The notes under the pieces: model-generated
Seen by the model: the letters and a program-made list of their open reading frames with translations, nothing else
The model's database searches: none
What the model was told of the DNA's origin: nothing
Shown: positions 45,407 through 49,703 of the stretch, in pieces
How positions within the stretch are numbered: position 1 is the stretch's first letter
Layout of the letters: every line of letters begins with the position of its first letter
Origin: Candidatus Raymondbacteria bacterium RIFOXYA2_FULL_49_16
GTDB taxonomy: Bacteria > Fibrobacterota > OXYB2-FULL-49-7 > XYB2-FULL-49-35
Assembly (NCBI GenBank): GCA_001789205.1
Contig: MFYT01000039.1
Span: 14,233-78,232, forward strand
Length of the DNA: 64,000 nucleotides
Direction: 5' to 3'
Translations under genes and position numbers: made by a program

Positions 45407-46990
45407 ATGAAGCATTTTGCGGTATTTCTCCTTCTTTACGCCGCCACACTGTTTTCCGCAACATTCTATCGTGAGGACTTCGAAGGGAATGCGCGCGTCC
45501 AGTCGTGGATGACCACCACGGAAGAGCCTGTGGAACAGTGGCTGCGCATTGGGCCTGAATTCGCGTGCGAGGGAAACGCGGGCCTGCGCATTGGGCCTGG
45601 CCCCTGGCACATGCTCAGGAAAGATGTATTATGGAAAACCGATTCGCTGCTTTTTTCACAAGGATTCTATTTTCATTTTTTCCTGAGGATTGAAAGCGGG
45701 CCATTCGCCCTTGGACAGTCTTTTACCGACCTGGTCCATTTTCTCATGATTCCGCGATCAGGCGGTTATTATAGCAACCCAAGCCTTCTGGTTGAAAGGC
45801 GGGCGGACAGCTCCATCCACCTCTTTGCGCTCCTGCGCCAGAAAAAAGAGGACAATCCGCTCCGGGTGCCATTGCGCGAACAGGAGTCGCGCCTTGAGCC
45901 GGGTGCGTGGTACCGGATTGAATTTTTTGTGCGTATCAAGGGCGATTCGCTCTCAGACTCGCTTTTTATCAATGGCCGTTGCGCCGGGCAGGGCGCGGTG
46001 GCGCTGGTGGACCGCTATGGCCTTCTCCAAAGCTGGTATCTGGGTTTTGGGAATTCCCGCCTGCAGGGCGTTGCCGCTTTTGACATGGACAATATCATCA
46101 TTTCCGCTGACCGGTTGTCAGCATCGCTCAATCCCTTTTCGCTTTCAGCGCATGCGCGCAACGATTCCCTGGACTGTTCCCTGCTCTTTCCACCGCAGCA
46201 AGGGGTGTTTTATATTGACCTCAATCTTGGCGCGCAGGGATTTGCCGGGTCCGCGGGCGAACGGTTCGGCGTTTATGACGGTAAAAACAACCTGGTTTTC
46301 AGCTTGTACAGGTCTGATACTATTTTCTATAAAGGCGTTGAAGGGTCGAACCGGTGGTCCAAGACATGCCGTTCTGATACAGGAAGCCCGGTGTGGAGCA
46401 TTGACGCGACCGCGGGCGCGGCGCAATTGCGGATATGCATGCCCGCTGGTCTTTCACCTGGCGCATGGCACGCCCGTGCGCGCCTGATAAGCGAAGAGCA
46501 AGCGGCGCAATACGATTTTCCCGAGGCGGTTTTTATTGTTCCGGAAAGGCCGTGGTTTTTCCGGTGGTATAGTGTGCTTGCTGTCGCAGCGGTCCTGGGT
46601 CTGGTCTCGGGCGCGCTGGTGTTTCGGGCGCGTTTGCGGGAAGCCGCGTTGCCAGCGGAAATGCCAGGATCGTGGAAGCGGGCGGTGGATGATATTGAAA
46701 CCATGCTCCTCCAACGTTTTGGCGACGCGCAGCTTGATTCCAACGCCATTGCGGGCCATGCTGGGTTGAGCGTTAAAAAGGCCCAGCAGGTGTATCAGGC
46801 TGTGAAAGGAAAATCACCGGTCCAGCATTTGCGCGAGATACGGCTAGAACGCGCGTGTGTGCTGCTCAAGACCACGCAGAAGTCAGCGGCCGAGATTGCC
46901 TATGAGGTTGGTTTTTCAGATCCTATCATTTTCCAGAGAAACTTCAAGAAGGCCTTTTCCCTTACGCCAGGCCAATACCGCGACCAGTAG
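45407..46990 (+). CDS. Second transmembrane one-component AraC-type regulator with ConA-like sensor domain
   Basis: 527 residues from the ATG at 45407. Signal peptide MKHFAVFLLLYAATLFSA. The extracytoplasmic domain YREDFEGNARVQSWMTTTEE and WYRIEFFVRIKGDSLSDSLF is the same ConA/LamG-like fold as in the regulator at 26293-28284; here it lacks the fibronectin module. The transmembrane helix is at about 387-406 (WYSVLAVAAVLGLVSGALVF). The cytoplasmic part (about 425-527) has the AraC double helix-turn-helix (EVGFSDPIIFQRNFKKAFSL). It ends LTPGQYRDQ, and the same 9 residues are encoded again at 48487-48513. Confidence 0.8.
   Translation: MKHFAVFLLLYAATLFSATFYREDFEGNARVQSWMTTTEEPVEQWLRIGPEFACEGNAGLRIGPGPWHMLRKDVLWKTDSLLFSQGFYFHFFLRIESGPFALGQSFTDLVHFLMIPRSGGYYSNPSLLVERRADSSIHLFALLRQKKEDNPLRVPLREQESRLEPGAWYRIEFFVRIKGDSLSDSLFINGRCAGQGAVALVDRYGLLQSWYLGFGNSRLQGVAAFDMDNIIISADRLSASLNPFSLSAHARNDSLDCSLLFPPQQGVFYIDLNLGAQGFAGSAGERFGVYDGKNNLVFSLYRSDTIFYKGVEGSNRWSKTCRSDTGSPVWSIDATAGAAQLRICMPAGLSPGAWHARARLISEEQAAQYDFPEAVFIVPERPWFFRWYSVLAVAAVLGLVSGALVFRARLREAALPAEMPGSWKRAVDDIETMLLQRFGDAQLDSNAIAGHAGLSVKKAQQVYQAVKGKSPVQHLREIRLERACVLLKTTQKSAAEIAYEVGFSDPIIFQRNFKKAFSLTPGQYRDQ
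46961..46990 (+). repeat. Direct repeat, copy 1 (AraC 3' end)
   Basis: 30 bases encoding LTPGQYRDQ and the TAG stop of the AraC gene. The second copy is at 48487-48516. Their differences fall only in third codon positions and in the stop codon. Confidence 0.75.
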
Positions 46991-47021
46991 ATTTTAGCAT
47001 GAAAACGCGTTTTTTTGGCTT

Positions 47022-47053
47022 ATTTATATAAACAGGCGCCTGTTTTATATAAA
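47022..47053. promoter_or_regulatory. Imperfect 32-bp palindrome before the ATPase gene
   Basis: ATTTATATAAACAGGC meets GCCTGTTTTATATAAAT at a shared centre, a near-perfect palindrome with one extra base in the right arm. It lies 40 nt before the DUF4143 start in AT-rich DNA and is the likely operator or promoter. Confidence 0.5.
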
Positions 47054-47092
47054 TTTATTGAAAAAAACACGCCTATTTATTATATTAATGAT

Positions 47093-48478
47093 ATGAAACG
47101 GTTAGCAGAACAGCGTCTTTTTGAATGGATTAGTTCAAAAAATCGGAAACCACTTATCATTCGCGGAGCAAGGCAAGTTGGAAAGTCCACTGTTATCCGG
47201 AACTTTTCCGCCCAACATAATAAAACACTGCACGAGATCAATCTTGAGAAGAATCTGAAACTCGATACGGTTTTCAGGAAACTCAATATTGCTGACATCA
47301 TTCGTGAGCTTGAACTTCTCTCCAACCGTGGCAGGATAGACGGGGAAAACAGCGTTGTTTTTTTGGATGAAATACAGGCAGTACCCTCAGCGATCCCCGC
47401 GTTGAGATATTTTTTCGAGGAGCGTCCCGATATTCCGGTAGTGGCCGCAGGATCTTTGCTTGAATTCACGCTCTCCAGGGAACATTTTTCCATGCCTGTT
47501 GGACGGATAGAATACCTGTATCTGGGACCAATGAGTTTTCAGGAATATCTTATGGCGCAGAACGAGGGCCAGTTGATCGATTATATGCAGGGGTTTAGCG
47601 TGCATACGCCTCCTTCGGAAGCTGCGCATGGAAGGCTGCTGACACGTTTGCGTGAATACCTCCTCGTCGGTGGCATGCCCGAAGCCGTGAGGGTCTTTAC
47701 GGATACCGGAAGGTTCGAGGACGCTTTTAAAGTGCATGATTCCATAATCGAGACATACCGGGAGGATTTTTCGAAATACGCTTCGTTCCAAGACCTGATA
47801 CGGCTTCAGAAGGTTTTCGATTATGTCCCTTCCACGATTGGAGAAAAATTCAAGTATGTTAACATAAATTCCATGGAAAAGTCCGCTGATATGCGCCGTT
47901 CCGCAGACCTGTTGGCGCGTGCAGGGATCTTTCACCATGTCACCCACTCTTCATGTTCTGGCCTGCCGCTGCAATCCGGGGCAAAGGAAAAGGTTTTCAA
48001 ACCACTGTTTCTCGATGTTGGGTTGATGAATGATATTCGCGGCATCCACGCGCTTTCCGCAGAGAATGTGTTGAGCAGGCAGTTCATGAACGAAGGAAAG
48101 ATGGCCGAACAGTTCATAGGCCAGCATGTGCTCTATCTGAACGGGACAAGCAGGCATCCATCCCTCCATTATTGGCTCCGCGAGGAAAAGACGGGCGGCG
48201 CAGAAGTCGATTATGTCGTTTCCGTCGGAGAGACCATTGTACCGGTTGAAGTCAAGGCGGGATTGTGCGGTAGCCTGAAATCGCTGCTGCAGTTTGCGTT
48301 TCAGAAAAAGAGCCGGCTTTGCGTTCGCTTTGACCAGCACCAGCCGTCGTTTCATCCCGTTCAGTACGCGCTGAAGAACGGTGACGGCAACGGACATGTG
48401 CAGTTCAATTTTCTTTCACTGCCATTGTATATGGTGGATGAATTCCCACGGCTTGTGCAGGAGGCACTGGCGGTGTAA
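47093..48478 (+). CDS. AAA ATPase with DUF4143 domain
   Basis: 461 residues from the ATG at 47093. Walker A IIRGARQVGKSTVIRN, Walker B VVFLDEIQAVPSA, the sensor-like AAGSLLEFTLS, and GRIEYLYLGPMSFQEYL mark AAA_14. The C-terminal DUF4143 region includes FLDVGLMNDIRG and GGAEVDYVVSVGETIVPVEV, a nuclease-like fold. Cytoplasmic; function unknown, though such genes are often multiplied in genomes. It sits between the AraC gene and a repeat of the AraC 3' end. Confidence 0.85.
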   Translation: MKRLAEQRLFEWISSKNRKPLIIRGARQVGKSTVIRNFSAQHNKTLHEINLEKNLKLDTVFRKLNIADIIRELELLSNRGRIDGENSVVFLDEIQAVPSAIPALRYFFEERPDIPVVAAGSLLEFTLSREHFSMPVGRIEYLYLGPMSFQEYLMAQNEGQLIDYMQGFSVHTPPSEAAHGRLLTRLREYLLVGGMPEAVRVFTDTGRFEDAFKVHDSIIETYREDFSKYASFQDLIRLQKVFDYVPSTIGEKFKYVNINSMEKSADMRRSADLLARAGIFHHVTHSSCSGLPLQSGAKEKVFKPLFLDVGLMNDIRGIHALSAENVLSRQFMNEGKMAEQFIGQHVLYLNGTSRHPSLHYWLREEKTGGAEVDYVVSVGETIVPVEVKAGLCGSLKSLLQFAFQKKSRLCVRFDQHQPSFHPVQYALKNGDGNGHVQFNFLSLPLYMVDEFPRLVQEALAV

Positions 48479-48486
48479 ACCATGTA

Positions 48487-48516
48487 CTCACGCCCGGCCA
48501 ATACCGCGACCAATGA
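48487..48516 (+). pseudogene. Remnant of an AraC regulator 3' end (direct repeat copy 2)
   Basis: This sequence encodes LTPGQYRDQ then TGA. Compared with 46961-46990, codons differ as CTT/CTC, CCA/CCC, CAG/CAA and TAG/TGA, all silent. Sequence upstream of the nine codons is not AraC. It lies 8 nt past the ATPase stop. Confidence 0.75.
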
Positions 48517-48557: not shown

Positions 48558-49703
48558 TCATAGCCTGCACGAGGCCAGCCGCGAGGTCATTTCTTCCATG
48601 CCCATAAATCGTACTGGCAGTCCATTTATTAATTGCGTATACTCTTGGAGGGTATGCCGGCAGACCACCCAGTTCTCTCCCTGTGAATATTTTTTACGGA
48701 ACACCTGAAGGTTCCGGGAGTCGAAACCGTTGGCATCCCACTTGCACTCAACCGTTATCGGATTTTGCGTTTGATCCAGGATAATGAAGTCAATTTCGTG
48801 CCCCTGTTTATCTCGCCAGTATCTGACGCCTGGCCGTTGGAAATATGAGTGCATTTGGTTCAGCGTATAGTGCTCCCATAGCAGTCCAAGGTCCTCTTTT
48901 CTGAGCGTGTTCCATCCCTTGAAATGGCAGACGAAACCCGTGTCAAACGCGTAGATTTTTGGTGCGGCGACTATTTCATTCGATTTGCGGGATGAAAAAG
49001 GCCGGACCGTGTGGGCCACCCAGGTTTCTTGCAGGATAGCCAGATAATTATGGATTGTCTGCCTGCTTGCTTCGCATAGGTGGGCGAATCGTGTGGCCTC
49101 GAAAATGGAGCCGCTCTGAACAAAGAGCAGTTCCAGCATTTTCTGAAAACTTGACTTCCGGCCCAGGTTGAAGAGTTCCGAAATGTCCCGCGACCAAAAG
49201 GAATCTATCCATTCCTGAAACCGGTTCTCTTCGCGTTCTCCGAGAAAAAAAGGGGGTAGTCCGCCGCTGTGCAAGCGGGTTTCTATATCCGTTTGGTTAA
49301 AGTCCTTAAGGTCCTCTGCGGTCATAGGCGTCAGCCAAAGGGATGTCTTTCTTCCTGTCAATGTATCGCTGAAGCGTTTCGAGGCGCCAAGGGTGGACGA
49401 CCCGGTAGCTATTATTCTGGTTTCCGGATAATAATCGGCGGCGATTTTAAGCAGTTCTGACGGATTTTTCAGCTTATGGATTTCGTCCAAAACAAGGCGC
49501 TGGCCTTTGGTTTTTTCTAAGAATGATTCGGTATTGGAAAGAACCTCGCGTACGCTTGGCAGTTCACAGTCAAAATATGTGATTGAGTCGAGGCTTTTAC
49601 AGAGGACTGTTTTACCGGATCGTCTGACACCTGAAAGCCAAAGTATAGATTTCTGTTTCCAGCACTCTTCGATTTTCCTTTTCCAGTAGATTCTATCAAT
49701 CAT
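48558..49703 (-). CDS. Second AAA ATPase with DUF4143 domain
   Basis: 381 residues from the ATG at 49703. Walker A LWLSGVRRSGKTVLCK, Walker B RLVLDEIHKLKNPS, ATGSSTLGASKRFSDTLTGR, and a DUF4143 region with AFDTGFVCHFKGW and HEIDFIILDQTQNPITVECK. It is convergent with the related gene at 47093-48478, with which it shares the family but not close sequence. Function unknown. Confidence 0.85.
   Translation of the reverse strand: MIDRIYWKRKIEECWKQKSILWLSGVRRSGKTVLCKSLDSITYFDCELPSVREVLSNTESFLEKTKGQRLVLDEIHKLKNPSELLKIAADYYPETRIIATGSSTLGASKRFSDTLTGRKTSLWLTPMTAEDLKDFNQTDIETRLHSGGLPPFFLGEREENRFQEWIDSFWSRDISELFNLGRKSSFQKMLELLFVQSGSIFEATRFAHLCEASRQTIHNYLAILQETWVAHTVRPFSSRKSNEIVAAPKIYAFDTGFVCHFKGWNTLRKEDLGLLWEHYTLNQMHSYFQRPGVRYWRDKQGHEIDFIILDQTQNPITVECKWDANGFDSRNLQVFRKKYSQGENWVVCRHTLQEYTQLINGLPVRFMGMEEMTSRLASCRL

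Follow-up and report, generated by a model that had tools for sequence, protein, structure and literature searches.

Single-gene units and gene ends

Phages and genomic islands of the icd type integrate into the 3' end of a gene, replace this end by an equivalent one and leave the old end at the far side of the inserted DNA. Another form of insertion, accompanied by a long target duplication of variable length, is known for restriction-modification genes (Nobusato et al. 2000, as cited in the available parts of PMC3031569, PMC1643837 and PMC4978471). In parallel, PDC-S01 is described in the available part of PMC12988326 as an ATPase fused to a member of the PD-(D/E)XK superfamily; it ranks there fourth in commonness among the defence types across prokaryotes, and validation by experiment is stated to be still pending for most PDCs. 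In the PDC-S01 literature, as far as its text was available, no account was found of how such genes move or of gene-end duplication.

The locus described here lies within a 64-kb stretch of DNA, all of which was analysed and which is called the window below. An ATPase gene stands there between two copies of the 3' end of an AraC-type gene, with the following features:

45407..46990, plus strand: AraC-type regulator gene, the target gene (Pfam HTH_18, 5.7e-20, at the C-terminus; HTH_AraC, 1.1e-8)
46961..46990, plus strand: copy 1 of the direct repeat, the last nine AraC codons (LTPGQYRDQ) with TAG, CTTACGCCAGGCCAATACCGCGACCAGTAG
46991..47092, plus strand: AT-rich spacer (24.5% G+C) between copy 1 and the ATPase gene
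47058-47086: sigma-70-like promoter match in the spacer, a match to the consensus only
47093..48478, plus strand: cargo gene for an AAA_14-DUF4143 ATPase of PDC-S01 type (Pfam AAA_14, 1.4e-24; DUF4143, 1.1e-22)
48487..48516, plus strand: copy 2, nine codons for LTPGQYRDQ with TGA, 8 nt past the ATPase stop, CTCACGCCCGGCCAATACCGCGACCAATGA

Among the described phenomena, the nearest one that this unit resembles is restriction-modification insertion with long target duplication. In both cases a defence-type block without transposase or integrase is flanked by direct repeats of the target whose length varies, and an empty site is found in another genome, here at a second locus that contains a GNAT gene. 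The repeats also reach the length of long target duplications, namely tens of base pairs or more, with 30 nt at AraC, ~33-123 nt at GNAT and ~171 nt at a third locus containing ribE. On the contrary, the cargo is here a single AAA_14-DUF4143 (or Fic) gene, no methylase or restriction-modification cargo being found in the unit, and the repeats sit at gene ends. Moreover, the copies differ by synonymous changes and by their stop or start codons, a pattern that speaks for an imported allele end rather than for a fresh duplication.

The first-pass annotation of this DNA had likened the unit to phage integration into icd. The anatomy supports the likeness, in that the gene end is restored on one side of the unit and found again on the far side, but the unit is tiny and, as had been noted, devoid of integrase, a single gene lying between the copies of the 1526-nt unit; in addition, the cases share no common core. 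The unit also differs from an insertion sequence or a transposon, since no transposase ORF was found between the copies and no inverted repeats at the boundaries. It is reminiscent of an integron cassette in that one gene is closely trailed by a short repeat and that arrays are possible. Nevertheless, inspected by eye, the 30-nt copies contain no GTTRRRY or RYYYAAC core sites, and the repeat consists of coding gene-end sequence. Finally, the cargo is like the single-gene candidate defence PDC-S01 of PADLOC, whose model matches the ATPase at 2.1e-142 over residues 1-457.

The AraC-end repeat and its cargo

Copies 1 and 2 are spaced by 1526 nt and are identical at 25 of 30 nt (24 of 27 within the nine codons), with an identical 17-nt core, GGCCAATACCGCGACCA. 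As the first-pass annotation had claimed, the nine-residue AraC end recurs behind the ATPase gene with TGA in place of TAG, and the five mismatches comprise three synonymous changes at third codon positions, the rest falling in the stop codon. The local score of the repeat is 21, while the maximum reached in 400 shuffles was 13.5 (extrapolated P ~1e-7), and it is the top-scoring direct repeat at a spacing of up to 8 kb across the window. In the genome, 724 ORFs (0.92 Mb) were surveyed for other 3'-end duplications scoring above 16. One was found, on contig C64, with a 202-nt copy at a spacing of 2450 nt, and it looks like a pair of paralogous C-terminal domains. The AraC-end repeat is the sole short 3'-end duplication of its kind among the 724 genes. 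Chance similarity, for which the shortness of the repeat speaks and nothing else, is negligible as an explanation given the distance from the shuffled scores and the lack of any comparable short repeat in 0.92 Mb. The 17-nt core was also sought in viral contigs, where the nine exact matches were about the estimated chance number for a collection of this size and were rejected.

The repeat, its cargo and the synonymous divergence of the copies were observed directly. When substitutions were placed at random on the window copies, the synonymous-only pattern came out in ~1% of simulations when the nine codons were considered and in 0.03% when the stop codon was included. This bears on a true target duplication, in which 30 bp of the target would have been duplicated by the insertion itself, with drift between the copies thereafter. 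A like anatomy is reported for restriction-modification genes in the available parts of PMC3031569 and PMC1643837. Drift, however, should hit all codon positions, whereas both the window copies and the GNAT copies of two other species (G141 and G100) show only synonymous or stop-to-stop changes, and a true target duplication is therefore very improbable. A freed copy would have changed at all codon positions, so the two ends more likely diverged in working genes before they met. Divergence before the insertion in turn suggests that the cassette brought a gene end from another allele.

The view that both copies had been kept as coding sequence did not hold, as copy 2 has no present reading frame of its own. 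Conversely, the annotation had named as a refutation that copy 2 be the end of a separate gene. This was contradicted by the frame of copy 2, which differs from that of the ATPase gene, by a stop codon in its own frame 24 codons upstream, and by the lack of any AraC-like sequence found before the copy. The same evidence weighs on the idea of a paralogue remnant, which supposes a tandem AraC duplicate or a related AraC gene downstream, with the ATPase gene between, and the loss of the second gene except for its last 30 nt. Such a history would account for the synonymous divergence without an imported end. It fits poorly with a copy that begins 8 nt past the ATPase stop behind a frame with no AraC trace, and with a nine-residue end that is found in no paralogue of the genome: LTPGQYRDQ is absent from ~14 other AraC-type genes, the nearest end being LTPGQYRDKKSD, with different codons. 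Furthermore, several independent cases end in similarly short copies (30, ~34 and ~39 nt). Weighed against the support that it draws from the GNAT locus below, this evidence makes a paralogue remnant appear unlikely.

The translation of the cargo gene shows Walker motifs as well as a PD-(D/E)XK-like motif, and its product is, from the profile match to PDC-S01, a candidate anti-phage ATPase-nuclease. NCBIfam gave no match for the ATPases, and no convincing resemblance by sequence to a solved structure was found (best E 0.0065). The composition of the gene is unremarkable (49% G+C versus 51% for the ORFs of the window), and at least 14 genes of the AAA_14-DUF4143 type are present in the genome. 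In the spacer upstream of the ATPase gene, a 31-nt near-perfect palindrome (47023-47053, TTTATATAAACAGGCGCCTGTTTTATATAAA), unique within the window, is a possible operator. Terminator hairpins were no stronger than in shuffled sequence. A second AAA_14-DUF4143 gene, also of PDC-S01 type and not mentioned in the first-pass annotation, occupies 48558-49703 on the minus strand. The two genes are convergent, the stop of the second one being 41 nt away from copy 2, and no repeat was found to flank this second gene.

Gene-end copies around other DUF4143 genes

A total of 102 distinct DUF4143-type genes with both flanks were surveyed for direct repeats from flank to flank, with a cut-off score of 15 or more. 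Nine genes, corresponding to ~7 independent loci, reached the cut-off and the other 93 carried no such repeat. None of 29 HolB-like control genes did. In a second control with randomly paired flanks, the 99th percentile was 13, with one high value of 28.5. This value most likely reflects orthologous loci that happened to be paired, as the peak was 14 in an earlier control that used fewer genes. Among the nine high scorers, two belong to an interspersed repeat family of the window's own genome and one to an intergenic array repeat. The search for other DUF4143 genes flanked by host-gene ends, which the first-pass annotation had proposed as a check, was positive in two independent lineages, in one of them with an empty site.

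The two high scorers L002 and L006, both from the window's genome, were discarded, as their scores are due to the interspersed family and are unrelated to the AraC repeat. This family (GATAAGCATTTTNATTTTC ... AAAATACCCCTTC) is present in ~12-20 copies in 5.4 Mb of that genome. It lies no more than ~25 nt from the stop codon in four DUF4143-type genes (L002, L005, L006 and L122) and additionally upstream of three of them, and is commoner there than its copy number suggests. In the same way, a 33-nt repeat around DUF4143 genes of three genomes (G010, G157 and G006) was rejected because it is intergenic and hence not a gene end. This repeat (CTTATAGGGGYTCTTTTTGAACCNGGGGAAAAC) forms array-like loci in genus g3 and a relative (L234, L235, L236 and L283-L309), where its copies share one strand per locus and separate small accessory genes, including toxin-antitoxin-like pairs, DUF4143 ATPases and lipoprotein-like genes. 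The repeat and the DUF4143 stop codon overlap, and the arrays are integron-like in look. In another genome (G053, L259), a DUF4143 gene is bracketed by a 22-nt direct repeat (AAAGTTTGGCTGAAACGAG core) that adjoins a ~44-bp tandem repeat at the contig end.

Like anatomy was directly observed at other gene ends, together with one empty site. In five species of one genus (G130, G141, G100, G138 and G137), probably a member of the Fibrobacterota as judged from gene content and group size, a DUF4143 gene comes after a GNAT gene, and four of the five have a copy of the GNAT 3' end directly behind the DUF4143 gene. In a sixth species (G140), the start of this DUF4143 gene stands behind GNAT at a contig end. 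The order in G141 and G100 is GNAT, DUF4143, GNAT-end copy, 130-aa ORF, GNAT-end copy, Fic, GNAT-end copy, the copies at the locus measuring ~33-123 nt. The DUF4143 gene, given as the cargo by the first-pass annotation, is thus the cargo in the window, but a Fic gene and a gene of 130 aa occupy the same kind of cassette elsewhere. Over the compared codons, only synonymous and TAA/TGA differences separate copy 1 from copies 2, 3 and 4 in G141 and from copies 2 and 4 in G100. For these comparisons, P under random substitution ranged from 0.003 to 5e-6; over the G141 and G100 GNAT pairs, such substitution gave the pattern in 2% to 0.0005% of simulations, with pairs that come from one locus and are statistically non-independent. 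One GNAT-end copy of G100 is frame-shifted, and the DUF4143-side copies of G130 and G138 carry changed residues; these copies look decayed.

The empty site was found in G105, where the GNAT stop directly precedes the sequence that lies behind the last copy in G100 and G141 (92% over 196 nt and 91% over 105 nt). Its GNAT allele is diverged, with 67% protein identity. In G046 and G136, purD stands directly behind GNAT, and in several other species decayed GNAT-end-like sequence is found immediately 3' of the Fic stop. These arrangements suggest that the GNAT gene end acts as a cassette boundary that was used repeatedly. On the other hand, the tandem GNAT alleles of G135, and the 123-nt copy and GNAT 5' fragment of G146, count against insertion, because a gene-remnant history would yield them, and they lend the paralogue remnant its support from this locus.

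In genus g3, the interval between a TSCPD-like gene and purD (L229-L245) is hypervariable, with a gene combination that differs per species. It contains GNAT alleles A and B as well as DUF4143, Fic, SDR, RhuM-like, lipoprotein and glycosidase-like genes, some of which are separated by GNAT-end copies. An extra GNAT-end-like copy was seen in G140 (L244, 6886-6915); it lies behind a flavodoxin-like gene, and the intact GNAT gene ends 3.4 kb downstream of it.

In a third lineage (G061), a DUF4143 gene separates ribD from ribE, and on either side of it stands one of two diverged copies of the ribE start and its upstream intergenic DNA (65 nt at 91% and 106 nt at 82%, in total ~171 nt). The start codon is GTG in the intact ribE gene and ATG in the remnant, and four of the five other codon changes are synonymous. 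As these copies belong to a gene start, the process does not appear confined to 3' ends.

These loci bear on a tyrosine recombinase supplied in trans, for which the unit would be a satellite with its att core in the AraC 3' end. The idea is in line with the attL/attR-like anatomy at the 3' end of a gene and with the identical core of 17 nt, and at least 12 tyrosine-recombinase genes, as family matches, are present elsewhere in the genome. Nevertheless, the unit has no integrase, and the other DUF4143 cases share no core, extend from 30 to ~171 nt and include one at a gene start, so that such a recombinase is distinctly improbable. The lack of a common core in the bracketing ends of AraC, GNAT and ribE and their span of lengths argue against one site-specific recombinase and for homology-guided exchange.

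Proposed insertion and its meaning

The 1526-bp unit would best be explained as a horizontally acquired single-gene cassette that was inserted at the AraC 3' end by short-homology recombination at the gene end, to which we assign a probability of about 0.55. The insertion into a 3' end that restores the gene end, as put forward in the first-pass annotation, remains in this form the best reading and its anatomy recurs at other gene ends, with the paralogue remnant as the main rival. The ATPase gene most likely arrived on a circular or end-to-end joined DNA molecule, together with an AraC end that belonged to an allele of another lineage. A single crossover within the ~17-30 bp of shared end would then have given the AraC gene a new, equivalent 3' end (copy 1, TAG) before the cassette, leaving the target gene intact, and would have left the old AraC end (copy 2, TGA) behind it. 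At the AraC locus, we infer the horizontal origin, the half of each copy that came from outside and the circular or one-crossover step. The recombination itself would have been guided by homology, whether RecA-dependent or not, with no integrase supplied in trans.

Several points count against this explanation. A homology of 30 bp is short for ordinary RecA recombination. In addition, no empty AraC site was found among the genomes compared. None of 61 genomes yielded an orthologous AraC locus, the best outside match covering the DNA-binding domain only, at 34% identity; the orthologue is absent from the one same-order genome compared, and a search of contigs for the locus gave one locus, which is unrelated. 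The unremarkable composition of the ATPase gene, the diverged GNAT allele at the G105 empty site, the GNAT alleles and fragments of G135 and G146 and the large share of surveyed DUF4143 genes lacking a flank repeat (93 of 102) also weigh against it.

Taken together, the cases suggest that solitary candidate-defence genes (PDC-S01 and SoFic of PADLOC) insert at gene ends and bring a replacement end from another allele. More tentatively, PDC-S01 (AAA_14-DUF4143) and Fic genes may be integrase-free cassettes that spread by exchange of the end of a neighbouring gene while keeping this neighbour intact. The driver could be the ATPase-nuclease itself or ordinary host recombination, and cassettes may stack at a favoured end. 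The synonymous difference between copies would record the end of a foreign allele and separate imported ends from fresh target duplications. A scan for the gene-end signature, which flags empty as well as filled sites, would make the movement of single genes of the PDC-S01 type traceable and testable.
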